DNA from: Pirellulales bacterium
Lineage (GTDB): Bacteria > Planctomycetota > Planctomycetia > Pirellulales > DATAWG01
DNA: 56,006 bases
Reading direction: 5' to 3'
Assembly: GCA_035939775.1 (NCBI GenBank)
Contig: DASZFO010000014.1
Location: 1 to 56,006 of the forward strand
The position numbers and the translations under genes were made by a program. This document shows, in pieces, positions 1 to 51,655 of this stretch. Under the pieces are notes generated by a model. That model was not told the origin of the DNA. It saw nothing but the letters and a program-made list of their open reading frames with translations, and did not search any database. Every line of letters starts with the position of its first letter. The stretch's first letter is position 1.

Positions 1-1998
1 TAACGACTCGAGAGCCATTCCTTTGAGCGGAGAGAGTTCCCGTACATGAGAGACCCGCAAATCTAACTTGGTCAATGGCATCCCTCTGAGCGGCGATAAA
101 TCGGAGATATTCGTGAAGCTGCCATTCAGCTCCGTCAGGCGCATCCCTTTGAGAGGCGACAGGTCGGACACCTGCGAGGCTCCGCAATCCAGCTTCGTTA
201 GGGCCATCCCTTCGAGCGGCGACAGATCAATTAAGTTACTCACTCGCTGCCAACTGCTGCCGCGACAATTCAAATCCTTCAATCCTTGCAGCGCCCGCAC
301 TGGTGAAATATCGGTCAAGTTGTCTGACACAAATCCAAGTTCGGTCACCACACCGTTCACGATCTTCGGCGTCCCTATTCCGTCGGCGCCCGTAACTCTC
401 CCATCGAAGCCGGGATTCAGTTCCATCAGCTTCTTGGCGACGGCATCCACCTGATTCTCCGCGGGCAAGGCTGCGACCTCCTTCACCCATTGCTGGAAGG
501 CGGGGTCTTTAAACGTGGTAATCTTGCTCTCCTGTCGCTCCAACGTCGCCTTGATCGACGCTGTTCCGCCCGAATCCATCTCGAAATCTCTAGCAAAGAA
601 CTTGAACCCATCCTTCTCGACCTTGAGTCGATGCTTGCCCGGATCGACGGAGATCGAGATCGAGCCCTTCTCGCTGGGACGGGTGATCTCAATTCTGCCC
701 TCCTCATTCAAGACTTGCACTGTGGCATCGGGCTGATTGACCTCGACGACTAGCGTGCCATCTTTGGTCTGCAAGTTGAAGACAACGCCAGCCAGGATCG
801 CCACGCCAAGGACCGCACCGCCGACGATGCCCACAAACTTCTTATTGGACTTGCCGGTCTTCACCGAAACCGATTTCTTGTCGAGCGTGGGCTTGCGAAG
901 CGTGTCCAGCGTGACGTTTCTGAGAAAGGTCATGATGCCGCTGCTGGAATTCCTGCCGACCGATGGCTGGAGGCTAAGTGATGTCGGCTGATCGGAATTG
1001 CAATTCTTCAAAGCTGCGATAACCTCGCTCATGTTCTGATAGCGATTTTCGACCTTCTTGGCGAGCATCTTGTTGAATACGGTCTGGAGTTGTGCGGGCA
1101 CGTTGTTTCCCAGGGAAGGAATAGGGGTCTCGCGATGGGCCAGCAGCTTTTCCATCATGGTATCGCCGTCGTAGGCGGCTTTGCCGGTTAGCAGGTAGTA
1201 AAGCGAGCAGCCGAGGCTATAAATGTCGGCCCGTGCATCGGCGTGCTTGGAGCTGAGGGCTTGTTCCGGGGCGATGTAATCCGCAGTTCCCAGAACTGCT
1301 CCACTGCCTGTCAATTCGGCCTGAGTTGCAGCATCGCCATCGGCGTTGATCCAGGCCAAGCCCATGTCCAGAATCTTGACCGTGCCTTCGGAATTGAGCA
1401 GCAGATTAGCGGGCTTGATGTCCCGGTGAATGACGCCGTGCATGTGGGCGTATTCAAGGCCACGGGCCGCTTGCATAATGTAGTTCATGGCCTTGGCGAC
1501 GGAAAGCGGGCCATTTCTCCTGACCAACGCAGAGAGGTCGCTCCCCGCCACGAACTCCATCGCCAAGAAGCGGCTGCCATTCGCCTCATCGGCGTCGTAG
1601 GCGGCTACGATGTTGGGATGGCTCAGCTTCGCCGCCGCCCTAACTTCTCGCTCGAAGCGAGCGACGGTCGCCGCGTCCTGCCTGACGTTCTTGGGGAGCA
1701 TCTTGATCGCCACGATGCGGTCCATCGGTCGGTGCTGAGCCTTGAAGACCAACCCCATGCCGCCAGCCCCGATCTTGTCGAGGATAGTGTAGTTGCCGAT
1801 GTTCAGGGACTTGGCTCGACCGTGGTAGATTTCCTGAGCCTGGAACTTGGTCAGATGATGGCTCTTGACGAGCTGCATAGCGAGTTCCTGGGCGTCCTTC
1901 GGGGTGGCCTTTGGCGGGATGAAGTTATCAAGCTTGCCGGGCGTAATGATCCCCGAATCGGCGATCTGCCGGACGAACTGTTCGAGGGCGACGGCCAT
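1..1998 (-). CDS. Ser/Thr protein kinase with transmembrane segment and leucine-rich tail (3' end outside window)
   Basis: This is the whole open frame from the ATG at 1998 to the window edge (666 codons, no stop seen), so the C-terminus is missing. Residues about 70-335 form a Hanks-type kinase domain: glycine loop GAGGMG at 77-82, Lys99, the catalytic HRDIKPAN around 191-198, DMG (in place of DFG) at 211-213, and an APE-like APEQ. A hydrophobic segment near 380-402 would anchor the protein in the membrane. It is followed by a PEGA-like beta domain and then repeats of the form 'L.L..LS.LKGM.LT.L', a leucine-rich pattern. The kinase would be cytoplasmic and the repeats outside. A GAGGAAG ribosome site lies 5 nt before the ATG. 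Such kinases are abundant in planctomycetes; the substrate is unknown. Confidence 0.93.
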   Translation of the reverse strand, partial: MAVALEQFVRQIADSGIITPGKLDNFIPPKATPKDAQELAMQLVKSHHLTKFQAQEIYHGRAKSLNIGNYTILDKIGAGGMGLVFKAQHRPMDRIVAIKMLPKNVRQDAATVARFEREVRAAAKLSHPNIVAAYDADEANGSRFLAMEFVAGSDLSALVRRNGPLSVAKAMNYIMQAARGLEYAHMHGVIHRDIKPANLLLNSEGTVKILDMGLAWINADGDAATQAELTGSGAVLGTADYIAPEQALSSKHADARADIYSLGCSLYYLLTGKAAYDGDTMMEKLLAHRETPIPSLGNNVPAQLQTVFNKMLAKKVENRYQNMSEVIAALKNCNSDQPTSLSLQPSVGRNSSSGIMTFLRNVTLDTLRKPTLDKKSVSVKTGKSNKKFVGIVGGAVLGVAILAGVVFNLQTKDGTLVVEVNQPDATVQVLNEEGRIEITRPSEKGSISISVDPGKHRLKVEKDGFKFFARDFEMDSGGTASIKATLERQESKITTFKDPAFQQWVKEVAALPAENQVDAVAKKLMELNPGFDGRVTGADGIGTPKIVNGVVTELGFVSDNLTDISPVRALQGLKDLNCRGSSWQRVSNLIDLSPLEGMALTKLDCGASQVSDLSPLKGMRLTELNGSFTNISDLSPLRGMPLTKLDLRVSHVRELSPLKGMALESL

Positions 1999-2601
1999 AG
2001 ACTTCCTCGCCGTAAGCTGGACGGTCCCTCAGTATAGCCTGCCGAAGCCGCCGGATGGGGTTGGCCGCTCGCCGGCTCTAATTCGCGAATAGGATGTCGC
2101 CTGTCGGGAGAGTCAACGGTATTTAGGTGCCGACCACTCGACTTACCGCAGGTAGTTGACAATCTGTAAGGTCCTGCCGCCGCAGGACGAACGGCACCGA
2201 CTCCATCGACCTTGGCTCGGCCCACGGGCTGATCCCCCGAAGACCAGCACGCTCGATGCCAACGGGTGCGGGATATTAAAAAAGGTTCGTCCGCAGAACT
2301 TGTTGTTGTTTTTAGCCATTTCTTGCGAGCGTCGTCCGCCCGACCGACGTAGTTTGCAGCGGCGGTCGAGCCAACCGCCGCAGGCAAGCTAAAGTCGCCG
2401 TTAGCCGAGATACGCCGTCGTCGATGAATGCCGGGAGTTCGTGAAGGTTAGCCTTTAGCCTCATTGCGAGGCAGCCAGTCGGATCGAGGTCTCCAGACTG
2501 ATGACTTCGTCGCACGACAACCTTATACAATTGGCCGCCGGCGCTCAATTGAACGCCGGCGGCCATGCTTGCAGCGGAAACGACTCTGTTCGTCCGGTGA
2601 C
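1999..2601. other. intergenic region, no convincing gene
   Basis: About 600 bp between the kinase and the secreted NTF2-like gene. Open frames here look like shadows: they are Arg/Ser/Pro-rich and lack ribosome sites. Short runs such as TTAGCCT and GGCTAAAGG in both orientations resemble decayed intergenic repeats. I see no RNA gene or clear terminator. Confidence 0.5.
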
Positions 2602-3159
2602 TTATCCGGAAGTGGCGGGTTGCAGCGCCGCAACCAGCGCACGAACATCGACCGAGAAGATTCCGATGAGTTTGATTTTGCCCGCCGGATTGAACGCCAT
2701 ATACACGGCGATTGGCAGAGTGGCCGGATCCTTGGCCTTCGACTCGACGACCAATTCCCCCATCAACACGACTTCAGATCCGCGGGTGATTTCGGTCGTG
2801 ATCCGGAAGTCCTTGTGAAGATCGCCATAGATATCGCGCAGAGCTTTCTTGGCAGCCTCGCGGCCTTGGTATTCCGCATTCATCCCCACGAGCGCGGGAT
2901 CACCGGCGGAGTCCTTGGTCGCCGTGCCGAGCCGGACGTTGAACACCACGTCGTCGGCCAGCAGTTGATTCCAGGTTTTGAAGTCCCAGTGATTCAGCAC
3001 CCCCCGGACCATTTGCCGGGCCTGCGCCAATTGCTCGACTTCGGCGTCGGTTTTGGCCGGGTCGGCGGCCCGTGCGACCGAACCGCCGGCGATCGCGCAA
3101 CAGATCGCCAGCGCCGACGCGACAGAACGAGATTTAAGTTCGACGATGCTACGGTACAT
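2602..3159 (-). CDS. secreted SnoaL/NTF2-like protein
   Basis: 185 residues. The N-terminus has a basic start followed by a hydrophobic core ending in AGGSVARAA, a typical Sec signal peptide cut near residue 31. The mature part has the order expected of a SnoaL-like/NTF2-like cone fold: a helix with VRGVLNHWDFKTWNQLLADDVVF, a glycine/acid linker, and the strand-rich C-terminal half with VVLMGELVVESK and LPIAVYMAFNPAGKI. Family members are small-molecule isomerases/cyclases or plain binding proteins, so no substrate can be given. The start at 3159 has AAGGGGG 6 nt upstream on the minus strand. It stands alone, with no operon partner. Confidence 0.8.
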   Translation of the reverse strand: MYRSIVELKSRSVASALAICCAIAGGSVARAADPAKTDAEVEQLAQARQMVRGVLNHWDFKTWNQLLADDVVFNVRLGTATKDSAGDPALVGMNAEYQGREAAKKALRDIYGDLHKDFRITTEITRGSEVVLMGELVVESKAKDPATLPIAVYMAFNPAGKIKLIGIFSVDVRALVAALQPATSG

Positions 3160-3302
3160 ATTATCCCCCTTTGGGTCGAAAGAGTAATAGTTGTGACGAC
3201 ACGCGTCAGCGGGACGAATGCAACACGCGCTCGCGTCCCCTTGGCCACTCGGGAAAACCTTCTTCGGATTGGCGCCGGCGTTGAAAGTTAGCTCAAAACC
3301 GC

Positions 3303-3378
3303 CTCGGAGAAGGGGACAGACGGACAGACCCCATTTTTCTCCGCGGACTGCGCAAAATGGCGCCAGTCCCCGGCGGCT
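3303..3378. repeat. dispersed palindromic element ('GGGGAC...GTCCCC' family)
   Basis: GGGGACAG near 3306 pairs with CCAGTCCCC near 3367, around a core CTCCGCGGACT. The same core, in the opposite orientation, occurs inside the palindrome within the histidine kinase gene at 55692-55798, and the GGGGACTGTCCCC motif recurs inside imuB at 49511-49532. Here it sits in non-coding DNA. Confidence 0.55.
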
Positions 3379-3551
3379 TTGTGTGCCGGCGTTAGCCGAC
3401 GGGAGCAGACCCGCGGCGCATTTGGCATTCCAAGAGGTTCAAGCGAAAAGGGAGCAACACATGTTTGCCGCACAGGCAGGGACTGGAGAAGCCACCGCCG
3501 TTGAGGTGATTCAATACTAAGGAGGAGGTCGTCGCCTTCGTTCAGCAACTG

Positions 3552-3896
3552 ATGAATGACATTCAAGCGGACTACATCGTGGAGCGACGCGCCGAACCAC
3601 GCTGCCCGGTTTGCATTTCGATGGAGGCGATCCCGTATGATAGCCACGGCCATAGGGCCAACCAGCCATTCACGGCCGTTACGAAGGACGTGTCGGCTAG
3701 CGGCATTTCATTCCTGCACGATGCAGTGATTCTGGATCGGTTCTTGTTGGTCCGATTTCACCGGTTGAACCAGCACAATTCGCAACAGATCGTCTTGGAA
3801 GTGAGTCGCCGGCGACAAGTCTGGCCTCTTTGGGAAATCGCGGGAAAGGTTCATAGCGGAACCGAAGCAATTCAAGGGCAAGACCCCCTCGCGTGA
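3552..3896 (+). CDS. PilZ-like domain protein
   Basis: 114 residues. It carries a PilZ-type signature: ERRAEPR near residues 11-17 and DVSASGISF near 47-55, matching the RxxxR...(D/N)xSxxG pattern that binds cyclic di-GMP in true PilZ domains. Planctomycetes have many short proteins of this kind; whether this one binds the nucleotide is not known. The start is uncertain. The frame is open upstream to a TGA at 3507-3509, and an AAGGAGGAGG ribosome site at 3519-3528 lies 23 nt before the ATG, too far for normal use. The upstream codons (EEVVAFVQQL) look like protein, so a non-ATG start or a lost start is possible. A second PilZ-like gene lies at 41114-41575. Confidence 0.6.
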   Translation: MNDIQADYIVERRAEPRCPVCISMEAIPYDSHGHRANQPFTAVTKDVSASGISFLHDAVILDRFLLVRFHRLNQHNSQQIVLEVSRRRQVWPLWEIAGKVHSGTEAIQGQDPLA

Positions 3897-4565
3897 AGAT
3901 GCGGCTGGCGGCGTTTAGCGATGACGTTACTTCCGCGCCCGTCATCAGCTGCCGCGTCATGCGCTTTTCTCCGGCCGCTTGAATTGCACGTGCACTCAAA
4001 TCGTCGCTGGACCTATTGCCCAACGGTCTGCCACTCAGCGTATACGGCGGTCGGCTCCGAGAATCCCCGATGCGCCGATGGCTGCTCGCGAGCCTTGATC
4101 TTCCGTCACAGCGCCCGCCATTCCGCCTCCGGCCGTAACTCCGAAACGTCGGCTCGCCGATAGAAACGCATCTGCCGATAGCGGCCGACCGGCTTCGCAC
4201 CGGGGCGGGGAGCGAAATAGGCGGTGGGAGCCACCAGGCAGTTGTCAGGGATGTCGGCAATGCGACTGAACTCTTTTATGCGTGGGACGCTCGATTCCCG
4301 CCCGGTGGAACTAAGTCCGCTGTCAGTCGGATCGTAAGTGGAGCGGCCGCGTGGGGCAAGCCGCGACCGGCGAGCCGCCCGATTCTCGTCAGGCTTCCAC
4401 CGGCAACTTGGCCAACCCGAATTCCACGAAAACGACCGCGAGGACTCGCCGGTCATCGAGGTTCGCTTCAAAGTCGCCGAGATCATCAATCTATGGATCG
4501 GATGTTGCGCTGTAGTCAAGTCCATGCGGAGCATCAAGGTTGCAATGAGTCGCGCGGCGCGCGGA
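3897..4565. other. gene-poor region
   Basis: About 670 bp without a gene I can support. A minus-strand frame reading roughly 4106-4300 (containing VAPTAYFAPRPGAKPVGRY) has a protein-like composition but continues into an arginine/serine-rich stretch without a plausible start. It may be a fragment of a lost gene. Confidence 0.35.
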
Positions 4566-8814: not shown

Positions 8815-9005
8815 TCAGCTTTGCCGAGATTACTCGGGCGGGGAGCTACCGCATCCGGCCCGGCGACGCCGATCAGAACGACCACGACCAGTTGCGTTAG
8901 ATCCCGTCTTCAAGCTGATGCTGGCCACGTGCCCTCGGCGACGAACTGGCTGACCAAACTTGGAAATGCGCCGCGGCCGGCACTCCGGGCCAGAGGGGGT
9001 TGAAA
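8815..9005 (+). pseudogene. degraded transposase N-terminal remnant (IS1380-like)
   Basis: Read across three frames, the strand gives ITRAGSYRIRPGDADQ..., then DPVFKLMLATCP, then NWLTKLGNAP. This order recalls the IS1380-type transposase N-terminus (GY.D..D...LR.DP.FKL...R.P......QPTLSRLENAP). Frame changes and a TAG show it is dead. No inverted repeats were found around it. The assignment rests on the DPxFKL motif and its neighbours only. Confidence 0.4.
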
Positions 9006-9308
9006 GTGCAACCGTTCGGCCCAAGATTTTTCTGGAAATGACGCGGACGACTCGGCAGGGGCCTCGCGCTTCGCGCCGTAACGCATTTTTGAAGGCGCGG
9101 CGACAGGTGGCCGGAATGCCGGGCCGCTGAAATCCATTCGTGACGGATCTCGTCTTTTTTGAGCTAGTTCTGGGGCCATCCTGAGTGACAATGCGGTTTC
9201 GTGAAGTAGAATGGGGGTCGCCGTTTCCGGCGGATTGTCCGCGGTGCGACCGGCCACCGGACGAGAACTTCGGGAGATTCTCAGGCACTTTGATCACGCG
9301 GGCGTCAC
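9006..9308. other. intergenic region upstream of the histidine kinase
   Basis: About 300 bp with no supported gene. No clear promoter or ribosome site is visible in front of the ATG at 9309, so that start is less certain than others. Confidence 0.35.
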
Positions 9309-10658
9309 ATGATTGAGCCAGCTGACACTCGGACCCGTCGTCGGCCGACGGCGGTTGCGAGCCGTAGCCCGGTGGATCAGGAGCCGGGATCTCGTCGTCG
9401 CAAACTCGCTGGCGACGAGGACGCGTCGAGGACGAACGATCAGATCAAGGCCCTGCTCCTGGCCCAATCGCAAGTTCTGGAGTCGATCTCCAAAGAGTCC
9501 CCGCTCACGGAGATGCTGGAATCGTTCGCTACAACGATCGAACGCCAGTCCGACGACATGCTGTGCTCGATTCTTCTCTTGGACGGAATGACGCTGCACC
9601 ATCGCGCGGCGCCGAGTCTCCCCGCCGAATACTGCCACGCGGTGGACGGCGTCAAGATTGGTCGCTCGGTAGGTTCCTGCGGCACGGCGGCATTCCGCAA
9701 AAAGCAAGTGATCGTCTCCAACATCGCGACGGACCCGCTGTGGGCCAACTATCGAGACCTGGCGCTGCGTCACGGGCTGCGCGCGTGTTGGTCGACTCCC
9801 ATCTTCAGCAGCACGAGCAAAGTGCTCGGGACGTTCGCTTTGTACTATCGAACTCCGCGGCGGCCGAGCGAGCGTGAATTGCAGCTAATCGAGACTTGGA
9901 CCCATCTGGCGGCCTTGGCCATCGAGCGGAAACTGGCGGAAGAATCTCTCCAGGCCGAGCGGCGGCGGCTGCTCGATCTTTATGAATCCCAGGAGTACGA
10001 ACGAAAGCTCGCGGCTTACGAGATTCATGATGGCATCACCCAATACGCGGCCGGCGCGATCATGCACCTGGAAAGCTATCAGCGAGCACTGGGTGGTCAG
10101 TCGTCACCGCCGGAACTTCAGTTGGTCGACCATCTCGTGCGAAAGACGTTGGAAGAGAGTCGCCGTCTGATTAACGGATTCAGGCCTCCCATTCTCGACG
10201 AACAAGGGATCGTCGCCGCGATCGAGTATCTGGTCGAAGAGCAGACCGCTGCCGGACCGAAGGTCACCTTGGAACTCAAATCCGAGATTCCGCGCCTGGC
10301 ACCCGCGTTGGAGACCGCCATCTTTCGCATCACTCAGGAAGCGTTGACCAACGCCAGAAAACACAGCGGCAGTCGGAAGGTTGAAATCAAGCTCGACCAT
10401 GATCGCGATTGGATCCATCTCGAAGTGCGGGACTGGGGCAAAGGTTTCAAGCCCTCTCGTGGCCGTAAAGGTCGTTTCGGACTGCGAGGGATTCGTGAAC
10501 GCGTCAGGTTGTTGGAGGGTAAGGTCGCCATCGAAAGCCGACCAGGGAAGGGGACTTCGGTCTCAGTTGATCTGCCGATCCTTGTGCTGCCAAAGCAGGC
10601 CGAAAACCGCAACAATCGCGGACCGCTGCGGTCCGTGACCCGCGGAAGTCCTCGCTGA
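9309..10658 (+). CDS. GAF-domain sensor histidine kinase (NarL/DegS-type, HisKA_3)
   Basis: 449 residues, no transmembrane segment, so cytoplasmic. The first 45 residues are Arg-rich and probably disordered. A GAF domain covers about 55-200 (SVGSCGTAAFRKKQVIV, then DPLWANYRDLALRHGLRACW). The HisKA_3 dimerisation/phosphoacceptor helix is near 235-300 (YEIHDGITQYAAGAIMHLE; His is the likely phosphorylation site). A HATPase domain follows (ITQEALTNARKHS N-box; DWGKGF and FGLRGIRERV G-boxes). Kinases of this class normally phosphorylate a LuxR/NarL-type regulator, but none is encoded next to it, so it is an orphan here. GAF ligand unknown. Confidence 0.9.
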   Translation: MIEPADTRTRRRPTAVASRSPVDQEPGSRRRKLAGDEDASRTNDQIKALLLAQSQVLESISKESPLTEMLESFATTIERQSDDMLCSILLLDGMTLHHRAAPSLPAEYCHAVDGVKIGRSVGSCGTAAFRKKQVIVSNIATDPLWANYRDLALRHGLRACWSTPIFSSTSKVLGTFALYYRTPRRPSERELQLIETWTHLAALAIERKLAEESLQAERRRLLDLYESQEYERKLAAYEIHDGITQYAAGAIMHLESYQRALGGQSSPPELQLVDHLVRKTLEESRRLINGFRPPILDEQGIVAAIEYLVEEQTAAGPKVTLELKSEIPRLAPALETAIFRITQEALTNARKHSGSRKVEIKLDHDRDWIHLEVRDWGKGFKPSRGRKGRFGLRGIRERVRLLEGKVAIESRPGKGTSVSVDLPILVLPKQAENRNNRGPLRSVTRGSPR

Positions 10659-10942: not shown

Positions 10943-11089
10943 ATTGAAACCCCTGTTGTTGTTTTGGTGAGTAGCTCGCTCGCCCTGCTAGTCGTCACGA
11001 TCGCGCTGGTGCGCGAAGTGCGTCTCCGCAGAGCCTTGCAGCGGCTGCTGGCCCGACTATTGGCCCATTGGAGAGGAAAGGAACCATGA
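10943..11089 (+). CDS. small single-pass membrane protein
   Basis: 48 codons plus stop. The frame encodes VLVSSSLALLVVTIALVRE and then a basic amphipathic tail (RLRRALQRLL...HWRGKEP). The stop overlaps the start of the lipoprotein gene (ATGA at 11086-11089), which supports a real, coupled gene. The ribosome site GAAGGAG at 10928-10934 is 8 nt from an ATT codon at 10943, a rare but known start. TTG 10964 or GTG 10967 are alternatives with poorer spacing. The same ribosome site could also serve a TTG at 10944 that gives only eight residues before TGA. Topology: one helix with a cytoplasmic basic tail. Confidence 0.5.
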   Translation: METPVVVLVSSSLALLVVTIALVREVRLRRALQRLLARLLAHWRGKEP

Positions 11090-11598
11090 AGAACTCTTGT
11101 TTACTGCAGCTCGTGTTTTTCTGTCTGCTCGGCACGCTGTCCGGCGGCTGCGATTCGGATGACTCGCGTGTGGCGAGACTTTCACAAGAAGCCGCTGCTC
11201 GCCAAGCGGACCAGAACCGGGAGATGGCCCGCCTAGTCGAGTCCCAGCAGGGCATGCAACAAGGCATCGACGCCCAGCGCGGCCATCTCGACGAGCAGCG
11301 CACGGTGCTGGAAGACGAGCGGCGGGCGATCGCCGCCGAGCGGGTCCGGGACCCGATCATCGCCAACGCCCTGACGGGAGCCGTCGTCCTGGCCGCTTGC
11401 GCATTGCCCCTGATGCTCGCGTTCTTCGTTCTGCGCGGCTCCCACAAGTCCGACCCGGACGATGCCGCGCTCAGCGAACTTCTGGTGCATGAACTCGTGG
11501 CGGACAAACCGCTCTTGCTTCCCCGGCCGACCCTGCCGGCGCTCGAGGAGCAATCCAATCAACTCGAGACCAATTCCCTGCCCACCAAGGATCTTTGA
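11086..11598 (+). CDS. lipoprotein with coiled coil and transmembrane helix
   Basis: 170 residues. The ATG at 11086 follows GAGGAAAGG and overlaps the previous stop. A signal peptide ends in a lipobox-like LSGGC, with Cys at residue 22 as the probable lipidated residue. Residues about 30-85 are a charged coiled coil (QEAAARQADQNREMARLVE, then QQGMQQGIDAQRGHLDEQR). A hydrophobic helix follows at about 93-118 (ALTGAVVLAACALPLMLAFF), then a cytoplasmic acidic tail. Having both a lipobox and an internal helix is unusual, so the N-terminus may instead be a plain first helix. Function unknown. Confidence 0.7.
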   Translation: MKNSCLLQLVFFCLLGTLSGGCDSDDSRVARLSQEAAARQADQNREMARLVESQQGMQQGIDAQRGHLDEQRTVLEDERRAIAAERVRDPIIANALTGAVVLAACALPLMLAFFVLRGSHKSDPDDAALSELLVHELVADKPLLLPRPTLPALEEQSNQLETNSLPTKDL

Positions 11599-11670: not shown

Positions 11671-12018
11671 TTGTCCCACATCGTCGAGATCAAAACCGAA
11701 GTCCGCGATCCGGACGCATTGCGGGCCGCTTGCCGGCGGCTGGGACTGGCTGAACTGGTTCACGAGACCGTGCAGCTCTTTAGCGGCAAGGCGACCGGCT
11801 GGGCGGTCCGGCTTCCCGACTGGAACTATCCGGTCGTCTTCGACACAACCCGCGGCGAGGCTCGCTACGACAATTTCAATGGCCGCTGGGGCGAACAAAA
11901 ACATCTCGATCGTTTAATGCAGGCCTATGCCATCGAGAAGTCGCGGCGCTCACAATGCGCCTCCAGCAATGTATCGGTTCGCCCGGGTCGTACGTCCAAT
12001 CCTGCCACACACAATTAA
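11671..12018 (+). CDS. DUF1257 family protein
   Basis: 115 residues from TTG at 11671, which has AAAGGAGGA 5 nt upstream. Residues 1-90 fit the DUF1257 (Ycf35-like) family: SHIVEIKTEVRDPDALRAAC, ETVQLFSGKATGWAVRLPDW, then YDNFNGRWGEQKHLDRLMQAYAIEK. After AYAIEK the usual C-terminus (a GYS.TEQ..ADGS-type strand pair) is absent and replaced by a Ser/Arg-rich tail in every frame. The 3' end therefore looks damaged or replaced. In planctomycetes DUF1257 genes often sit with AAA ATPases and DUF2997 genes; neither is seen here. Biochemical role unknown. Confidence 0.8.
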   Translation: MSHIVEIKTEVRDPDALRAACRRLGLAELVHETVQLFSGKATGWAVRLPDWNYPVVFDTTRGEARYDNFNGRWGEQKHLDRLMQAYAIEKSRRSQCASSNVSVRPGRTSNPATHN

Positions 12019-12077
12019 AGGCTGTTTGCCTCAGCGTTTTTATCGTCCCTTTGAACCAAGCGGGAGAGACGAAGTCG

Positions 12078-12149
12078 ATGTCACACATCGTCCAGATTCA
12101 AACTACGATTCGCGATCCCGTCGCCGTGACTGCAGCCTGTGCTCGACTT
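12078..12149 (+). pseudogene. truncated second DUF1257 start
   Basis: ATG at 12078, preceded by GGGAGAGACGAAGTCG, begins SHIVQIQTTIRDPVAVTAAC, an N-terminus closely like that of the intact DUF1257 protein (SHIVEIKTEVRDPDALRAAC). After about 24 codons the similarity stops. The frame runs on without a stop into the next gene, so a 228-residue fusion could be made. It is probably a partial duplication or deletion remnant. Confidence 0.55.
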
Positions 12150-12221
12150 ATGTTGGCAGGGGTAAGTTATGAATTGAGGCGCCGCATTGCCGAACCGCCG
12201 CCACACGAAAAGGAGATACCC

Positions 12222-12764
12222 ATGTCGGAACCCATTCCTGCGGAAATCTGGATCGGCGGCAAGACTCGTCGTGAGCAAGTGCCGCAGCTCTGCAAGGCGA
12301 TCGAGGACGCTGGCGTGGCGCTCGAATGGGGCGATGCGTACTTCGCGCCCGAGACGGGCGAGGAACTCGAGACCGCCTGCCAGGACAAAGATGGCGTGCG
12401 ATTGTTGTGTCTTTGCGACGACCAGGCCAACTATGGTGAGTTCAAGCTGCTGGAAGAGTTTCTAGTTCGCGAGAGAATCACGTACCGTCGCAAGTCCGAC
12501 GCGAAGTACGAATTCGACGCCGAGGTCGTCGAGCACCGGCCGCAGGTCGGGCAGGTGCGCTATCCGTCCGACAGCAGCGGCCAGCCATTCGTGCCGCTAG
12601 CGACCATGATGCAAATCGCGGCGACGATCGACGAGGCGGCGAACACGGCCCAGGGACAAACGGCGCTCGAACTCCTGCGCCGACTCCGCAACGTCCAGCA
12701 ACTCCTGCATGAGGCGCTGCCGGTCGTCGTGCCTCCGCTCGAACCATTCGAGATCGTCGGCTGA
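12222..12764 (+). CDS. conserved hypothetical protein of planctomycete cassette
   Basis: 180 residues. ATG at 12222 with AAGGAG 7 nt upstream; this is preferred over the in-frame upstream ATG at 12078, which belongs to the DUF1257 fragment. It begins SEPIPAEIWIGGKTRREQV, has VRLLCLCDDQANYGEFKLLEEFL in the middle and EYDAEVVEHRP-type strands (here KYEFDAEVVEHRP), and ends in a helix pair followed by PPLEPFEIVG. The whole length reads as one compact alpha/beta protein. I recognise it as a companion of DUF1257 genes in planctomycetes but know of no function. No membrane segments or catalytic motifs. Confidence 0.75.
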   Translation: MSEPIPAEIWIGGKTRREQVPQLCKAIEDAGVALEWGDAYFAPETGEELETACQDKDGVRLLCLCDDQANYGEFKLLEEFLVRERITYRRKSDAKYEFDAEVVEHRPQVGQVRYPSDSSGQPFVPLATMMQIAATIDEAANTAQGQTALELLRRLRNVQQLLHEALPVVVPPLEPFEIVG

Positions 12765-12917
12765 ACGATCGGCGCGGTCACCGGCATTCTTCGTCGCCGT
12801 CCTGGGCCACTCTTCCTTTGCTGCGGCTTCGATCGCGCAGTACGGCAGCCGTCCAATTCGCGAAGCGTGCGGCGCTCAACGCGTCTTTCTGGGGCTTGCT
12901 CTCTCGCAAGTCCGCTC

Positions 12918-13472
12918 ATGCCGGCAGAACTCAAGTCCGCGGCCCGCGAGCGACTGGGGAGGCTGTTCAATTCGGCGGACTATCCCGAATCGCTCGACGG
13001 GCTGTTCGAGGTCGAATGGGATTTTCCCAGCGTCGAGCCGCCGGATTATCTCCGGCAGCTCAGCCCCGAACTGTATCGCCAGGAGAGCCAGCGGGTCGCC
13101 GCCCGGTTCGACGAGGCGATTCGCCTGGCGGAAGAGGCGTTCACCGCCGAACTGGCCAAGCTCATCTCGCACCTCACAGAACGGCTCTCCGGTCAGGAAG
13201 ATGGTAAGCCAAAAATCTTCCGCGATTCGGCCGTCGAGAACTTGAACGACTTCTTCCAGCGGTTCCGCGCGCTCAACGTCGGCTCTGACGAGCAACTGGA
13301 TCAGCTCGTTAGTCAGGTGCAGAACATCGTCCGAGGTGTCGAGCCACAGCAGCTCCGCGACCTACAGCCGCTCCGACAGCAGGTGGCCACTCAGTTGTTG
13401 GGCGTTCAATCGGTTCTGGACGGGCTGATGATCGACCGGCCGCGGCGGAACATTCTCCGCCAACCCAAGTAA
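12918..13472 (+). CDS. DUF3150-like protein, apparently missing its N-terminal half
   Basis: 184 residues, mostly helical. The segments ARERLGRLFNSADYP, RFDEAIRLAEEAFTAELAKL and IFRDSAVENLNDFFQRFRALNV, with a final VLDGLMIDRPRRNILR, have the order seen in the C-terminal half of DUF3150-type proteins of phages and conjugative elements. Those are usually nearly twice as long and carry an upstream helical domain. Here the frame upstream of the ATG at 12918 does not look coding and there is no ribosome site. The gene is therefore probably a 5'-truncated remnant. Family assignment is from memory of the pattern and is moderate. Confidence 0.5.
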   Translation: MPAELKSAARERLGRLFNSADYPESLDGLFEVEWDFPSVEPPDYLRQLSPELYRQESQRVAARFDEAIRLAEEAFTAELAKLISHLTERLSGQEDGKPKIFRDSAVENLNDFFQRFRALNVGSDEQLDQLVSQVQNIVRGVEPQQLRDLQPLRQQVATQLLGVQSVLDGLMIDRPRRNILRQPK

Positions 13473-13488: not shown

Positions 13489-13734
13489 ATGGAGATCGTC
13501 ATTTCTCCTCAAGGCCAGGCTAAGGCGATCTACGACGAGGCCATTGAACTGGCAACTCTCGGCCAGCTCGCAATCCGCCGCGCCCCATCCGTCGAGCCAG
13601 ATATGCAAGGCCGGTGGCTGACAGATCTCTCGCCGGTAGCTGGTCCGTGCCTCGGTCCGTTCGTTTGCCGTAGCGTGGCCCTCGAAGCCGAGCGGGCTTG
13701 GCTCGAGACTAACTGGTTAACGGGCCAAGACTGA
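13489..13734 (+). CDS. small conserved hypothetical protein
   Basis: 81 residues, starting 16 nt after the previous stop. The sequence MEIVISPQGQAKAIYDEA, then SIRRAP-like LAIRRAPSVEPDMQGRWLTDLSP, then GPFVCRSVALEAERAWLETNWL suggests a small beta-rich protein. I associate this protein type with the same planctomycete cassettes. No catalytic residues or membrane segment. There is no strong ribosome site (CGAGGG 11 nt upstream), so translation may be coupled to the gene before. Confidence 0.65.
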   Translation: MEIVISPQGQAKAIYDEAIELATLGQLAIRRAPSVEPDMQGRWLTDLSPVAGPCLGPFVCRSVALEAERAWLETNWLTGQD

Positions 13735-13870: not shown

Positions 13871-14062
13871 ATGACCCAAGCGCAACTCGAACGCGAGATC
13901 TCCCGCGCCACCGGAGAATCCGTCACCACGATCCGCAACCTGGGCTTCAGTCTGATCGAGCCTCCGGAATTGGAGCCGCTCACCATCGACTGGGACGAAC
14001 TCGAGGCCGCCCGCGTCGGGCTGTTTCCCGCGGCTCACTCGCGGCGTCTGTTGGCCGCCTGA
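13871..14062 (+). CDS. small hypothetical protein
   Basis: 63 residues. ATG at 13871 with GGAAAGGA 7 nt upstream; an in-frame ATG at 13841 has no such site. The protein (MTQAQLEREISRATGESVTTI, then GFSLIEPPELEPLTIDWDELE) begins with an HTH-like amphipathic helix pair and ends with an acidic DWDELEAAR. It precedes the ubiquitin-like gene by 99 bp, so it may be a cassette component or a small regulator. Function unknown. Confidence 0.6.
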   Translation: MTQAQLEREISRATGESVTTIRNLGFSLIEPPELEPLTIDWDELEAARVGLFPAAHSRRLLAA

Positions 14063-14161: not shown

Positions 14162-14383
14162 ATGAAGATCTTTTTCATCAATGCCCAGGGGGCCGGCTTC
14201 GCCAACCATATCGAGGTTCGGCGCGGAACCACCGTCGAACAGCTCTTCCACGAGCGGGTCCCCGGCGGCAAGCCGGAGGACTATTTGATCCGCGTCGATC
14301 GTCAGCCGGCCGCGGCCGGCGAAGTCCTCAAGGAAGGGCAGCGGGTTTCGTTCACTCCGACCAAAATTGAAGGCGCCGGCTGA
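14162..14383 (+). CDS. ubiquitin-like beta-grasp protein (MoaD/ThiS-type)
   Basis: 73 residues. ATG at 14162, GGAG 9 nt upstream. The pattern is a beta-grasp: strand MKIFFINAQG, strand NHIEVRRG, TTVEQLF helix, DYLIRVDRQP, then the 'EVLKEGQRVSFTPTK' strand pair typical of MoaD/ThiS and bacterial ubiquitin-like proteins. It ends IEGAG: the last residue is Gly, which an E1 enzyme could adenylate, but the classic diglycine is absent. The next three genes encode an E2-like/RING-like protein, a JAMM protease and an E1. This context favours a protein modifier over a sulfur carrier for molybdopterin or thiamine, whose pathway genes are not here. Confidence 0.75.
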   Translation: MKIFFINAQGAGFANHIEVRRGTTVEQLFHERVPGGKPEDYLIRVDRQPAAAGEVLKEGQRVSFTPTKIEGAG

Positions 14384-14484
14384 AATGCCGATCCGCTGAG
14401 TGGCCTGCCGGCATTATTGCCGGCAGGTCACTTTTCTACCTCCGACATCCTTATCTTCGTCCATCACAAACAGAGGCCCGAACT

Positions 14485-15501
14485 ATGAAGCAGAAACAGC
14501 GCGCACTGCTGGCAATGGTCAACGCCATTCGGGCCGATCTGGCTCGGCGGCAACGGCCCGATGACCGTGCCACCAGGCTGCCGGCGGATGCGTGGGACGA
14601 TCTGGTTCAGATTACGCGGCGAATCGAACGCGCGGAGCGGAAGGGTTGGCATCTGGCCGCCGCGCAACTGGCCGGAGATCAGACGTTCTTGGCCACCTGC
14701 GTTCAGAGCGAACTGGCCACCTGGATGGAGTGTCGGCGGAGCCGTCCAGTTTCCAGACCGCTGCCCAACGCATCAGACCTGTTTCGAGACCTCGCGGCGC
14801 TCCAAGAGGAGTTCGGCGAGGTGAAGTATGAAGGGGGCCAGGAACTCTGGGTGACCACCGAGCCGATCGAGCTGGAAGGGATCCGTTTGGGACGATTTCA
14901 GATTCGGCTCAACTGGTTGGCGATCGGCGCGAGTACGCCCTACCGAGTCGTGGCACTCGATCCCAACCCGGCCGCCAGCGACGACAACACGACCCATCCG
15001 CATGTCCGTCACGAGCACCTTTGCGAAGGTGGTGGGCGGACGGCGATCGAACAAGCACTGCGGGATTGGCGACTTTACGACTTCTTCCTGATCGTCAATC
15101 GGATCTTGCTCACCTATTCTCTGGGCAGCGCCCACGTCGAGCTGGCCGACTGGCACGGCGCGGCCTGCCGGAGTTGCGATTGCTCCGTCGACGAGGACAG
15201 CCGTTACGATTGCCACGGCTGCAATTGCACGCTCTGCGCGGATTGCACCAATTTCTGCGGCTGCGGCTACGACTTCTGCTCGGACTGCATCTCGAATTGC
15301 CCGCGGTGCGACGAGAACTGCTGTCAGTCCTGTCTGTCGATCTGCGCTAAGTGCAAGGCGGCCGTATGTAGCGGCTGCCGTGAAACTGAAACCCTGTGCA
15401 AGAAATGCCATGAACGAGAAACCGCCGATGCCGAAAAGGCCGCTGCGCTTGCGAAGCGGCCACCGAAGCGTAAAACCCGCCGCGCCCGCGCTGCGGTTTA
15501 G
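14485..15501 (+). CDS. fused E2-like and Cys-rich RING-like protein
   Basis: 338 residues. Residues 1-100 are helical. Residues about 110-222 fit a ubiquitin-conjugating (UBC) fold: strands around RFQIRLNWL and YRVVALDPNP, then HPHVRHEHLCEGGG with Cys180 in the place of the catalytic Cys (compare HPN...G.ICL in E2 enzymes), then helices ALRDWRLYDFFLIVNRILL. Residues 228-308 hold 23 cysteines in repeated CxxC pairs (CADCTNFCGCGYDFCSDC, CPRCDENCCQSC, CAKCKAAVCSGC). This would bind several zinc ions and resembles RING/treble-clef or tandem zinc ribbons. A Lys/Arg tail ends the protein. In the likely pathway it would take the modifier from the E1 and, through the Cys-rich part, guide it to a target. 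The E2 call is by pattern, not by search. Confidence 0.65.
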   Translation: MKQKQRALLAMVNAIRADLARRQRPDDRATRLPADAWDDLVQITRRIERAERKGWHLAAAQLAGDQTFLATCVQSELATWMECRRSRPVSRPLPNASDLFRDLAALQEEFGEVKYEGGQELWVTTEPIELEGIRLGRFQIRLNWLAIGASTPYRVVALDPNPAASDDNTTHPHVRHEHLCEGGGRTAIEQALRDWRLYDFFLIVNRILLTYSLGSAHVELADWHGAACRSCDCSVDEDSRYDCHGCNCTLCADCTNFCGCGYDFCSDCISNCPRCDENCCQSCLSICAKCKAAVCSGCRETETLCKKCHERETADAEKAAALAKRPPKRKTRRARAAV

Positions 15502-16150
15502 CCCGACTGCCTGGGCCAAGTTGATTTATTTGCGCGACCGGGGACCGACCGAGGTGGGCGGATTCGCGATCGCGGCCGCCGATGACGGGTTGTTCGTTGA
15601 AGACGTGCAGATGGTCCGCCAGCGGTGCACGCCGGTCTCAGTCAAGTTCGACGACACGGCCGTGGCCGATTTCTTCGATCGGCAGATCGACGCCGGGCTT
15701 GCGATGGACCGCTTCAACCGGATCTGGGTCCACACGCATCCAGGGAATTGCCCGTTGCCGAGCAACACGGACGAAGACACGTTCGACCGCGTGTTCGGCC
15801 AGTTCGAGTGGGCCGTGATGTTCATCCTGGCCGAGGAGGGCCAATCCTACGCCCGGCTACGATTCAGCGTTGGGCCGGGCGGCGCGATCACGATCCCGGT
15901 CAACGTCGATTACACCCGCCCATTTGCCGGCAGCGACTTGGCCAGTTGGGAGCGCGAGTACGCAACCAACTTGAATCACGAGCCAGCGTCCCGCCGCGAT
16001 TGGCTCGGTTCGCCGGTTACGGCAGTTGAAATGGAAGCGAACGGGTTGCAGAATCCGCGGGAGATTTCCGACTCGTTCTTCGATCCCTTTCGGGACGATC
16101 GTCTTGATGATCACGAACTGTTTTTGGAAGGAACCTTGTATGACTCGTGA
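15410..16150 (+). CDS. JAB/MPN (JAMM) metalloprotease-like protein
   Basis: 246 residues from the ATG at 15410, overlapping the previous gene by 92 bp in another frame; GTG 15380 and ATG 15428 are alternative starts. A full JAMM zinc site is visible: Glu48 in PTEVGGF, His108 and His110 in WVHTHPG, Ser118 and Asp121 in [11 protein letters not shown]. Such enzymes cleave isopeptide bonds or trim ubiquitin-like precursors. Here it would process the small beta-grasp protein or remove it from targets. The C-terminal 90 residues form an extension with no clear motif. It lies directly between the E2-like gene and the E1 gene, with overlaps on both sides, so the three are translated together. Confidence 0.8.
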
Positions 16151-16826
16151 AGTAACCCGATTTGAACGACAGAAGGATTTGGTGCCGCCGGAGCGCCTGG
16201 CCACGGTGCGGGCGACTGTGATTGGCGTCGGTGCGATTGGCCGTCAAGTCGCCCTACAGCTAGCGGCCATTGGCGCGCCCCGATTGCAGCTCGTGGATTT
16301 TGATGCGGTGGATCAAACGAACGTTACCACGCAAGGCTATTTGGCCGCCGACATCGGCCAAGCCAAGGTCTTGGCCACGGCGGAAGCGATTCGCTCGCTT
16401 GATCCGGCCATCCAAGTCGAAGCGATACTCGACCGTTATCGTCCATACCCGGACATCGGTGAAGCGCAGTTTTGTTGTGTCGATTCGATCTCGGCCCGCG
16501 ACGCCATTTGGCGCTCGGCCGGCCGCGGCTGTCGGTTCTGGTGTGACGGCCGGATGCTCGGAGAAATCATCCGTGTGCTCGTGGCGGCCGATCCCCGCGG
16601 CCGGGCCCATTATCCCACGACGCTCTTTGCGCAGGCCGAGGCCGAGCCCGGCCGCTGCACGGCCCGCAGCACGATCTACGCGGCCGCCATCGCCGCGGGT
16701 CTGATGGTCCACCAGTTCACGCGCTGGCTTCGCGGGCTGCCTACCGATCTAGATAACACGCTCAATCTGTTGAGCGGCGAATGGTCGGTCGTCTCGCCGT
16801 GCGGCCGGTCCGGAGTTCCTTGGTAG
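16140..16826 (+). CDS. E1/ThiF-family adenylyltransferase
   Basis: 228 residues. ATG at 16140 with GGAAGGA 7 nt upstream, overlapping the JAMM gene by 11 nt. The Rossmann-type ATP site [15 protein letters not shown] (27-41) and [18 protein letters not shown] (51-68) match the MoeB/ThiF/E1 core. Cys173 in [15 protein letters not shown] sits where the E1 thioester Cys is found in several bacterial members. The structural zinc-binding CxxC pairs of MoeB are absent. It would adenylate the C-terminus of the ubiquitin-like protein at 14162 and pass it to the E2-like Cys. The enzyme is short, adenylation domain only, as in other bacterial modification operons. Confidence 0.85.
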
Positions 16827-16902: not shown

Positions 16903-18386
16903 ATGATAACAATCTCGCGATCTTTGGCCCGCCGACTTCGGGCCGTGTTTCGCCGCGCGGGAATCAAACCGCTGGGCGGCTATCGTCCTCGGGTTTCGTT
17001 GCAAGCCGGACCCGACGGATTGCGGATCCATTCACTGACCGCCGACGTTGCGGTCCAGTACCTTCAGCCAGGCGAACATCCGCCTGAAGAATTCGCCGTA
17101 CCGGTGGATTTGCTCGACGAGTGCCACGGGAAGCGGGACGATCCCGTGATGCTGGAAGCGCGGACGAAACAGAAAATCGTCGCCAGTTGGCTCGACGCCG
17201 GAATTCCGCAACGGGCCGAATACGACGCGGAGTCAATCAAGAAACCGTTCCCGGAATTGCCCGCGAGCTCGTGGCCGTCGATTCCGCCTTCTGGCAAACG
17301 CTGCGGGATGCGGCGGAAAGCACGGACCCGAATCCGACTCGCTTCGCGCTCAACGACATTCAGTTGTGCGGCGAGAGCGGCCTGGTCATTGCCACCGACG
17401 GTCGGCAGATCTTCCGGCACGGGGGGTTCCAATTCCCTTGGTCCGAAGACGTGCTGATCCCGGCGCCGGCGGTGCTCGGCTCGACCGAGCTGGCTGACGA
17501 CGGTGGCGTGGAGATCGGCAAAACCGAGCGGTCGCTGGCGTTGCGGATCGGCAAATGGACCTTGGCCCTGACGATCGACCGCGAAGGACGATTTCCGAAT
17601 ATGGAGGAGATCATCGCGCGGGCCGAGTCCGGCAATTCGGTGCTGCGATTGACGCCCGGGGACGCCGAGTTCCTCGCCACCGCGCTGCCGAGACTCCCGC
17701 GAGAGGATCCCACTTGCTGTGGCGTGACGGCCGATCTGAACGGCCGAGCATTTGTCCGAGCGGAGTGCGCGTCGAATGTGCCGGTGACCGAATTGGAGCT
17801 TGCGAATAGCACAGTCGCGGGCGAGCCGATCCGCGTCGCGATGGACCGGCGGTACCTGGTGCGGGCTCTCAAACTCGGCTTCAGAGAATTTCGTTTGACG
17901 ACTCCGGAGGTTCCGGTCCTTGCGGCCGACGGGCGGAGAGAATACATCTGGGCGCCGTTGAGCCCCGCCGGCGCCGTCGGCACCGCTGACAACGCGATCA
18001 AGATCGCATCGCCATCTGAAGGCGCCGCGCGTTCTGCTTCCTCAACAACACCCATCAGGAGACAGTTTACGATGTCCGAAAGCATTACGACGGCACTCAG
18101 TGCCGACGGCGCGGCTGCGATCAGCGCCGAGCTGGTGGCCACTGGCAATCCCGCCGGCAGCGACGCCCGTGGTGCGGCCACCAAGGTCCGGAATACAACG
18201 ATTCGCAAATCCAGCCGTTCGAGCAGCGCCACGACGCTTGACCAAGCGATCGCGCTGCGCGATTCGCTGCGCCGGCCGGCCAGCCAAGCGGGCGACCTGG
18301 TCCGGGCGATGAAGCGGCAGCGCCGTGAGGCAAGTCTGCTTCGCTCAACGCTCGTCTCCCTCAAGCAGCTTCATGCGGCCGGGTAG
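16903..18386 (+). pseudogene. DnaN-like sliding clamp with internal frameshift
   Basis: ATG 16903 has AGGGAG upstream. The first frame runs MITISRSLARRLRAVFRRAG... to DAESIKKPFPELPA near 17262. The protein then continues in the frame one base back: ELVAVDSAFWQTLRDA, LNDIQLCGESGLVIATDGRQ, LTIDREGRFPNMEEI, and VAMDRRYLVRALKLGF. These are the repeated strand-helix blocks of the DNA polymerase III beta clamp, in the planctomycete accessory type. A C-terminal helical extension (about 18220-18386) belongs to the same type. An internal ATG at 18072 with AGGAG upstream could restart translation for this last part. One missing base near 17250-17265 explains the break; I see no classic slippery heptamer. 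It lies 76 bp after the E1 gene. Confidence 0.75.
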
Positions 18387-19449: not shown

Positions 19450-19933
19450 CATGCGCGAAATATTGCCATGATCGGCGGGAATTTCTTGGGCTACTTCAGT
19501 TCATAGCCGCCGGGACGACCGCGCTCGCAACCCTGTCCGGACGCTGACAGCCCCCAGGCCCGCGAGCAGTAGCGCGTTCTGCTCGGAGATTGACGGTTGC
19601 TGAAGTATGACTTCGGGTTGAACGGATCGGCCGTCCCGCGATCTTGTGGGTCCCAGTTGTCGCCGCCGTCGGTCGTATGCAAGAGCGTACTGTTGAGATC
19701 AACTGCCCGGGCATTCAGTGAGTCGACGAAACTCGCACCAAGCAAAGTGGTGGCGCGAGTGGACTGGGTCGCGCAGTTAGTCCGCGGTTGCACTGGGCTC
19801 TATGGGACACCCAGGTTGCACCGCCGTTTGCCGTGTTTGCCACCGCCGATCCGAAAATCTTGGCCCAGATAGTCTGGGCAGTTATAGCGTCGCGCCGGCG
19901 GCCAACAAATTCTTACAGACAAGGGAGGATTCG
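19450..19933. other. intergenic region
   Basis: About 480 bp. A minus-strand frame (19491-19793) contains LLHTTDGGDNWDP and SRAWGLS, which has some protein-like character and might be a fragment of a lost secreted protein, but no start or domain can be supported. The end provides the GGGAGGA ribosome site of the next gene. Confidence 0.35.
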
Positions 19934-20446
19934 ATGCCACTAAAACTTAATGTCGGACTGAGCAAGAAGGTCGGCCAGCCGAATTACGGCAGCCTCGGTG
20001 CGTCGTGCCACGTCGAAATCGAATTGGACCAATCCCTGATCTTCAGCGACCTCGACGGTTTCCACGAGCGCGTCCGCAACACGTTCGTCGCCTGCCGGCA
20101 AGCGGTGCAGGATGAGCTTTCCCGGTTCGACGGCGCCGCGACCGGCGATACGTCGGCCGATGCCCGCGGCCGCGGCTCCGCCAATGGCGTCTTGAGCGAC
20201 AACGGCTCCCACTGCAATGGCAATGTCTATCGGGCCTCCGAGAAGCAGGTCGATTACGCGCGGCAACTGGCCGGACAGATTCGCGGTTTGGGCATCCGAC
20301 GCCTGGAGACGCTCGCCAACCGCTTACACCACCGGCCGCTGGCGGATTTGTCGAGCCTCGAAGCGTCGACGCTGATCGACGCCCTGAAAGACATCAAGGC
20401 CGGAAAAATCTCTCTCGGCCACATCCTGAATGGAGCCGCCGCATGA
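19934..20446 (+). CDS. conserved protein of ssDNA-binding/phage replication type (tentative)
   Basis: 170 residues; ATG 19934 with GGGAGGA 5 nt upstream. The N-terminal domain (MPLKLNVGLSKKVGQPNYGS, CHVEIELDQSLIFSDLDGFHERVRN) is a compact strand-helix unit; a Gly/Asn/Ser-rich linker follows (about 75-105). The C-terminus (SEKQVDYARQLAGQIRGLGI, then LADLSSLEASTLIDALKDI) is the small helical module often found at the end of phage recombination, ssDNA-binding and helicase proteins. It overlaps the nuclease gene by 4 nt, so they form an operon. DNA-related function is inferred from that module and the neighbour. Confidence 0.65.
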   Translation: MPLKLNVGLSKKVGQPNYGSLGASCHVEIELDQSLIFSDLDGFHERVRNTFVACRQAVQDELSRFDGAATGDTSADARGRGSANGVLSDNGSHCNGNVYRASEKQVDYARQLAGQIRGLGIRRLETLANRLHHRPLADLSSLEASTLIDALKDIKAGKISLGHILNGAAA

Positions 20447-21279
20447 AAAACGAACCCATCACCCGCGACTTGCTCGCGGAGCAGCGAGGCGGCCTGTGGG
20501 ACTACGTCTCGCCGAGTCGGCTGGCCCTCTGGCTCAAGTGTCCGCTGGCCTTCAAATTCCGCTACGTCGACGGAGTCGAAACCCCGATGAGCCCGGGAAT
20601 GTTTGTCGGCCGCGTGGTGCATTCGGCGCTGGAGAATTGGTACCGTCATCGGCAGTTCGGGATCCGGCTCGAGCCGGATGACGTGGCCCGCCGACTCGTC
20701 GAATCCTGGGGCTCGAGTTTGGCGTGCGAGCGGATCGCGTTCGAATCGTGCGCCGAGGAGGAAACAAGCCGGAAGCAGTCCGTCGATCTGGTCCTGGCGT
20801 ATCTGGCTCAGCTCCCTGCGGACGAAGCGCCGCCGCTGGCGATCGAGACGGCGATGAAGGCGCCCCTGGTCGACCCGGGCACGGGCGAAGATTTGGGCGT
20901 GCCGCTCGTGGGCGTGATCGACCTCGTGCTCGACGAGCCGGACGGCGGGGTGATCGCGGATTTCAAGACCACCTCCCGCGGCGGCGAGCCGCTCGAGACG
21001 GCCCACGAGATCCAGCTCAGTTCCTACAGCTATCTGTATCGTCACACGTCGCCCCGGCCCGAATCGGCGCTGGAGATCAGAAACTTGATCAAAACGAAAA
21101 CGCCGAAAATCGAGACATATCGCTACGGTGCTCGAAACGACCACCATTACCGGCGGCTCTTCGCCGTGGTGCGCGCCTATCTCGACGATCTCGACCGGGG
21201 GCGGTTTGTGTTTCGGCCCGGGCTCGGCTGCTCGATGTGCGACTTCCGCGACACGTTGTGCCCCTCATGGGATGGCTGA
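20443..21279 (+). CDS. RecB/Cas4-like PD-(D/E)XK nuclease with probable Fe-S cluster
   Basis: 278 residues. Motifs in order: SPSRLALWLKCPLAFKFRY (25-43), GRVVHSALENWY with the His used in metal binding, GVIDLVLDEPDGGVIADFKTT carrying the Asp and the D...(D/E)xK-like IADFKTT, and HEIQLSSYSYLYR as the QxxxY motif. One Cys in LKCP plus three at the C-terminus (GCSMCDFRDTLC) match the four-Cys iron-sulfur cluster of AddB, Cas4 and RecB-like exonucleases. No helicase is fused. It would degrade or process DNA ends, alone or with the overlapping upstream gene. Cas genes and CRISPR arrays are absent. Confidence 0.88.
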   Translation: MKNEPITRDLLAEQRGGLWDYVSPSRLALWLKCPLAFKFRYVDGVETPMSPGMFVGRVVHSALENWYRHRQFGIRLEPDDVARRLVESWGSSLACERIAFESCAEEETSRKQSVDLVLAYLAQLPADEAPPLAIETAMKAPLVDPGTGEDLGVPLVGVIDLVLDEPDGGVIADFKTTSRGGEPLETAHEIQLSSYSYLYRHTSPRPESALEIRNLIKTKTPKIETYRYGARNDHHYRRLFAVVRAYLDDLDRGRFVFRPGLGCSMCDFRDTLCPSWDG

Positions 21280-49057: not shown

Positions 49058-49085
49058 GTACTTCGTACTTTGTACTTCGTACTTC
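49058..49085. repeat. heptamer array, four units, filling the imuB-dnaE2 gap
   Basis: GTACTTC, GTACTTT, GTACTTC, GTACTTC on the plus strand. It occupies exactly the space between the imuB stop (TGA 49086-49088) and the dnaE2 ATG (49055-49057), leaving no Shine-Dalgarno site. Confidence 0.9.
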
Positions 49086-51630: not shown

Positions 51631-51655
51631 GCTAGCATCGCTCCTCCGCTGTAAT

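Follow-up and report, generated by a model that had tools for sequence, protein, structure and literature searches.

Ubiquitin-like operons of bacteria have been known chiefly for a role in defence or as clusters without a description. One of them, operon type 6d, presumably corresponds to the PRTRC system. Type 6d, reported by Iyer et al. in 2006 (PMC1779556), is the nearest described type to the locus presented here, and related RING-containing operons of Planctomycetes are ascribed in a review (PMC4197634) to Burroughs et al. (2011), who may already have included or named the present family. Other planctomycete Ubl systems were reported in eLife in 2020 (PMC7159879). In the Caldiarchaeum/Asgard system, a JAMM protease trims a precursor ubiquitin to its di-Gly end (PMC5654768). 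Genes for DUF1257 and DUF2997 proteins adjoin in cyanobacteria and plastids (PMC4284462).

The window, i.e. the whole 56,006-nt stretch of Pirellulales DNA analysed here, contains a block of four adjacent genes for a ubiquitin-like protein (Ub), an E2-like protein (E2R), a JAMM protease and an E1-like enzyme (Table 1). All four open reading frames proposed in the earlier note were recovered, and the overlaps that it gave (92 bp between E2R and JAMM, and 11 nt between JAMM and E1) are exact. Overlaps at these two junctions are present in 40 and 33 of 42 loci, respectively, and the dN/dS values between close copies of the block, all from genomes other than that of the window, are 0.0–0.6; the block is under purifying selection in these genomes. 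Together with the conserved gene order, these data indicate that the four frames did not arise by chance, and the four genes of the window are real and intact. The block probably specifies a self-contained ubiquitin-like conjugation cascade that is an add-on of a mobile DNA-metabolism module. Our best reading is that a known bacterial kind of conjugation cascade is present in a new form, which has been spread by phages and mobile modules.

Table 1. Cassette genes identified in the window
Feature	Position	Strand	Basis or remarks
F6, small predicted membrane protein or lipoprotein, first gene of the cassette	11068–11598	+	Lipobox-like start and hydrophobic segment (by eye)
DUF1257 (Ycf35-type), broken after ...YAIEK, C-terminal third missing	11671–11946	+	Full-length relatives
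F23, start of a second DUF1257 (remnant), then a small conserved ORF	11955–12764	+	Fills the DUF2997/AAA+ place of complete cassettes
F7, conserved, mostly helical protein	12867–13472	+	N-terminal part missing here; relatives ~312–340 aa
F11, conserved 81-aa cassette protein	13489–13734	+	Distant relatives in three phage contigs
sm2, conserved small protein (~63 aa), immediately upstream of the Ub gene	13871–14062	+	Conserved
Ubiquitin-like protein, ThiS family, C-terminus ...TKIEGAG	14162–14383	+	73 aa
E2-like protein (E2R)	14485–15501	+	338 aa; helical hairpin, UBC-like core, Cys ladder
JAMM/JAB metalloprotease	15410–16150	+	246 aa; E48, H108-T-H110, S118 and D121 invariant in the family
E1/ThiF-like adenylating enzyme	16140–16826	+	228 aa; GxGxxG, R10, K76, D115, C173-T174; no UFD
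Beta sliding clamp homologue	16903–18386	+	PDB beta clamps, E 0.0016–0.0036
Conserved protein of 214 aa, flanked by clamp and nuclease	19802–20446	+	Also in the Ub-less modules L225 and L232
PD-(D/E)XK nuclease, which closes the module	20443–21279	+	Pfam PDDEXK_1, E 9.2e-28

The first product, proposed earlier to be a MoaD/ThiS-type beta-grasp protein, was confirmed as such: the Pfam ThiS profile matches 14 of 16 family members (best E-value, 2.6e-5), and the model, a beta-grasp fold with a pLDDT of 89.7, resembles MoaD, SAMP1, Caldiarchaeum ubiquitin and ubiquitin with Z-scores of 8–9.4. The C-terminal Gly that had been ascribed to it does not form a bare end. The family ends in I-E/Q-G-A plus 0–3 residues, with a single invariant Gly followed by Ala, so that trimming would be needed to expose a Gly end. 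At L039 (6533–7405), a TOPRIM-type domain and a Ub-like protein lie in one open frame, possibly a fusion, and the two are separate genes in L033.

E2R comprises an N-terminal helical hairpin (residues 1–95), a UBC-like core (96–222) and a Cys ladder (228–308). No match to it was obtained in Pfam, PHROGs or NCBIfam, and a search of plasmid and named-phage collections found no E2R. The active-site motif is H171-P-H-V...C180 (HPHV-x5-C), in which H171, upstream of C180, is invariant. The UBC fold proposed for this protein was borne out when its AlphaFold2 model (20 relatives in the alignment; pLDDT, 88.7) was compared with known structures. In the Foldseek list against PDB, most entries from rank 3 onwards are E2 enzymes, and VIA matched the model to UBE2S with an rmsd of 3.9 over 125 residues, although in absolute terms these model-based matches are weak (0.18 is the best E-value for an E2; Z-score for UBE2S, 6.8). 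The outcome that the earlier note had named as refuting, a lack of any UBC-fold match, thus did not occur. In hhalign, a profile of the E2 core (54 sequences) matched four yeast UBC sequences, entered by hand, with an E-value of 1.7e-5, whereas four other families used as controls gave 0.14–0.47; HPHV-x5-C falls on HPNI-x6-C of yeast UBC, which places the catalytic motif in register. VIA matches for residues 1–111 of the model (ClpC, Smc, etc.) were set aside as generic helical-hairpin resemblance. BFVD fold matches had low TM values and were mostly to Cys-rich proteins. HPH is present in 46 of 48 E2-like proteins of one set and 33 of 37 viral proteins of another (three contigs, L151–L153, are common to both), HPN replaces it in the remainder, and the Cys always follows. 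Two E2-like proteins, reading HPNV...C and HPNI...C, are encoded on viral contig L152; the latter, with the canonical motif, is the second E2-ladder protein of the same operon (8905–10254).

A RING-like domain fused to the E2 had also been proposed. The Cys-rich part is indeed on the E2 chain, but in place of the pattern of a single RING with eight ligands the window protein has a ladder of ten CxxC/CxC pairs with 20 invariant Cys residues, and its RING/PHD-like database matches are weak (E 0.007–0.2). Ten pairs are present in 34 of the 48 proteins of the first set, whereas the 37 viral proteins have 0–21, and the ladder is absent from several of the deepest viral E2s. This variation argues in favour of a putative zinc module that can expand, and against a single RING.

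Both remaining enzymes agree with their first assignments. The E...HxH-x7-S-x2-D zinc site of the JAMM protein, read earlier as complete, is invariant in all of its residues in 13 members; the conserved domain starts ~25 residues after the protein start, and the match to Pfam Prok-JAB (E 7e-4) is below the cut-off. The E1 matches Pfam ThiF with an E-value of 1.8e-21, and its adenylation and CT sites are invariant, i.e. G29/G31/G34 of the nucleotide loop, R10, K76, the Mg Asp (D115) and C173-T174. At the position of the NxxRQ motif of related enzymes such as MoeB it reads TNVTTQ and lacks the usual Arg. The profile of the family matched BubCD among solved structures, and the NCBIfam model PRTRC_ThiF gave an E-value of 2.4e-8 and 33.6 bits, far below its cut-off of 144.75. 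Between L155 and L157, the dS of E1 is 1.76 versus 0.4–0.5 for Ub, E2R and JAMM, which suggests gene exchange within the cassette.

In a scan of 97 genomes, nearly all of the same order, E2R was found in 13, with 33 copies and up to seven per genome (a 34th listed row, a short weak match, was not counted). Among 392 genomes of the phylum, 14 contain a full-length E2R, and nine more match its Cys-rich part only. The order Ub, E2 plus ladder, JAMM and E1, which the earlier note had suggested searching for in planctomycetes, recurs across genomes and was also found in other planctomycete orders. An E1 scan yielded at least four true relatives; among the matches listed, the named ones were from planctomycetes and one Chloroflexota MAG contig. 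Copies within one genome have just 3–8 kb in common, and many loci have a serine recombinase gene close by. This patchy, multi-copy distribution with a recurring set of neighbours fits the proposed accessory cassette. The same island-like pattern is what would be expected if the cascade tagged an invader protein, as in BilABCD and type II CBASS, in defence against phages or of one phage against another, with the AAA+ protein, nuclease and TOPRIM protein of the cassette as co-effectors. The AAA+ protein matches the IetA profile (1.7e-18), the TOPRIM protein weakly matches GajA, and L224 has beside it what looks, by eye, like a type I restriction operon. The IetA match is, however, a general AAA match, the profiles that PADLOC matched were all generic ones (JAB and E1-E2) with low scores, none being for Ub or E2R, and dozens of phage-like contigs bear the system themselves. 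We thus give a defence function a low, if appreciable, probability, and prefer a cascade belonging to a DNA-metabolism module.

The phage-like contigs were obtained by an E1 alignment search of IMG/VR, which gave 43 contigs of up to 208 kb, including the three found earlier (L151–L153). By profile search, 29 of them contain Ub, E2, JAMM and E1 in the order of the block and 11 more contain E2, JAMM and E1 without Ub (L217 only at E 0.08), giving 40 of the 43; the remaining contigs are truncated or have E1 alone. All catalytic motifs are kept in the phage members. A PF03237 terminase was detected in 12 of 32 viral contigs checked (11 over the cut-off), and a search for the T4 portal gave no match in the viral contigs or in the control. 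The cassette AAA+ is present in 18 of the 43 (E<1e-100), and F7-, DUF1257-, F11- and DUF2997-like genes are close to it in some. Relatives of the four-gene set are thus found among DNA-handling genes of dozens of large phages, which suggests a mobile tagging system and not a one-off; phage-borne versions were not found in the literature searched. More distant E1s occur in isolated Flavobacterium phages, a bajarodcaudo virus and crAss-type phages. E1 and a JAB gene adjoin each other in Flavobacterium phage FpV4 (L223) and in the bajarodcaudo virus (L222), with primase, uracil-DNA glycosylase and exonuclease genes around them. Next to these two genes, both genomes also encode an unannotated protein whose HSH...C recalls an E2, and a protein with a Ub-like start is encoded in this neighbourhood of FpV4, where the genes are mostly annotated as hypothetical.

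In an E1 tree that was built quickly, is unrooted and has low support at many branches, the planctomycete rows, three viral rows and the Chloroflexota row form one set (support 96) among viral rows, and the Phycisphaerae rows group with viral row L181 (support 93). Phage rows are on most of the basal branches, with weakly supported deeper joints, so the indication of transfer from phages to planctomycetes is a weak one. This nesting of the planctomycete E1s and the retention of the catalytic motifs in phages would suit a phage device for taking over the host or countering its defence, one that tags a protein of the host or of that defence and was captured by planctomycetes. The copies that planctomycetes share with phages, however, retain partners of DNA metabolism, a sign that the system serves the DNA of the element itself, and no prophage with a PF03237-type terminase was found near the planctomycete loci, leaving their location inside terminase-bearing prophages unsupported. 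Host takeover is a doubtful explanation, and we rate it slightly below defence.

The block is often part of such a larger module. At 22 of 47 loci, genes for DUF1257, DUF2997, an AAA+ protein and two conserved unknown proteins lie upstream of the block, accompanied at some by a TOPRIM-type gene, and F6 homologues are at the same position in about half of the loci. In phage L186 the Pfam DUF1257 profile reaches an E-value of 1.8e-9; with cellular members it scores under its cut-off. Nine loci without Ub have the same module order, with the clamp in six of them and a PD-(D/E)XK nuclease wherever examined; the nuclease homologue is at the same place in L225, and L224 has one of the same family. 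The AAA+ protein, for which Ycf46-like is our own label, has its best matches in the CDC48 and PAN/proteasome-activating families, and its association with E2R in the 392 genomes is strong (both in 10, E2R only in 4 and AAA+ only in 11; Fisher p 1.5e-11, with phylogeny not corrected for). These two features would fit a proteolysis or remodelling pathway in which the AAA+ protein is the unfoldase of tagged proteins, but the AAA+ module is without the Ub block in the 11 genomes just mentioned, the AAA+ is absent from about half of the Ub-bearing loci (including the window), and the conserved set contains no protease gene, so that we regard this pathway as unlikely. A sulfur carrier system of ThiS/MoaD type with ThiF, to which the ThiS family membership of Ub and the ThiF-like profile of E1 would point, is very improbable, because an E2 core with a conserved active site and a JAMM are always present beside them, the CT motif is typical of conjugating E1s, and no ThiG, MoaE or rhodanese partner was seen in the cassette.

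The DNA-replication neighbours that had been pointed out around the block are real, i.e. the clamp homologue and the nuclease. The window has the gene order of L225 (DUF1257, F7, F11, sm2, clamp, 214-aa protein and nuclease), with DUF1257 broken and F7 cut, and the Ub block lies between sm2 and the clamp. The clamp is in two frames (N-terminal part, 16903–17457; rest, 17121–18386), both matched by the family profile, which reflects either decay or an assembly error. Clamp and Ub block are together at only 3 of 47 loci, which weakens the clamp as a general substrate. In L156, a serine-recombinase element of ~2.97 kb (1381–4352) with a DUF1257 of its own is inserted in the cassette DUF1257 after codon 90; a 5-bp overlap of the two alignments is a possible target duplication. 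The DUF1257 match of the window ends at the same codon, and the next bases resemble the left end of the element. DUF2997 and AAA+ are missing from the window, and no cassette-type AAA+ was found in the whole assembly; both were probably lost through insertion of a recombinase element in DUF1257. The Ub block is intact despite this damage upstream. Elsewhere in the window, mur-type genes (27–36 kb, by eye) and, 30 kb from the block, a DnaE-type polymerase gene (Pfam) followed by ImuB- and ImuA-like genes (45677–51774) indicate a chromosomal setting.

If the block works as a conjugation cascade, the I-E-G-A end suggests that JAMM would trim the Ub-like precursor to expose its C-terminal Gly. The minimal E1 would then adenylate this Gly and, judging from its CT motif, probably hold the thioester on C173, from which Ub would pass, by homology, to C180 of the E2 core. 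The Cys ladder may position the substrate or prime discharge in place of a separate E3, and JAMM may also take the tag off. The cascade would be an add-on of a module of AAA+, DUF1257, DUF2997, sliding clamp, PD-(D/E)XK nuclease and sometimes TOPRIM genes, which large phages and genomic islands of planctomycetes appear to have exchanged. The missing Arg of the E1 motif and the lack of the AAA+ gene at about half of the Ub-bearing loci count against this reading. The likeliest targets, and the least certain step, would be proteins of the module or replication proteins that it encounters. It is conceivable, if improbable, that phage-borne cascades, with an E2 fused to an expandable E3-like Cys ladder, modify the DNA replication and recombination machinery of mobile elements together with the Ycf46-like AAA+, as a counterpart of Rad6-Rad18-PCNA that arose outside eukaryotes.

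One lineage of E1, E2, JAMM and Ub, with a zinc module on the E2 chain, occurs both in planctomycete islands and in dozens of phage-like contigs and is associated with genes for AAA+, clamp and nuclease. Should the cascade work, it would provide a four-protein system in which to ask what bacterial Ub-like tags do outside immunity. It would also connect genes of the DUF1257/DUF2997/Ycf46 type, which have long lacked an explanation in cyanobacteria and plastids, with the modification of proteins in some elements, and would bear on the origin of E2-E3 coupling.

Like the type 6d/PRTRC operons, the present block has separate genes for its components (a Ub-like protein that stands alone, and E2-like, JAB and E1 proteins) and is sporadic and mobile (PMC1779556). 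It differs from type 6d in three respects: the E2 has HPH or HPN before the Cys, whereas in the 6d E2 this His is missing and one further downstream serves instead; the E2 is fused to a Cys ladder; and the JAMM is without the large N-terminal alpha+beta domain (JAB-N) of the 6d JAB (PMC1779556). The operons of Burroughs et al. (2011), as summarized in the review, share E1, E2, RING-type, JAB and Ub components and their presence in Planctomycetes (PMC4197634). The E1/E2/JAB logic is that of type II CBASS, Bil and Bub, but, unlike in type II CBASS, E1 and E2 are separate genes rather than a Cap2 fusion and the E2 carries the ladder. General profile scans of the cassette proteins gave no CD-NTase match, and no Bil-specific match was obtained in PADLOC or NCBIfam, which may hold no Bil models. 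The adjacent DUF1257 and DUF2997 genes recall the Ycf35-DUF2997-Ycf46 genes of cyanobacteria and plastids, for which no Ub block is mentioned, whereas here they are joined to a Ub cascade, a clamp and a nuclease (PMC4284462). Finally, the block resembles the Caldiarchaeum/Asgard E1-E2-srfp-Rpn11-Ub operon in having a complete cascade, a zinc-finger component and a Ub precursor, which here too would be trimmed by a JAMM protease, but that operon has its RING as a separate small protein and its precursor is cut to a di-Gly end, whereas here the Cys ladder is on the E2 (PMC5654768).
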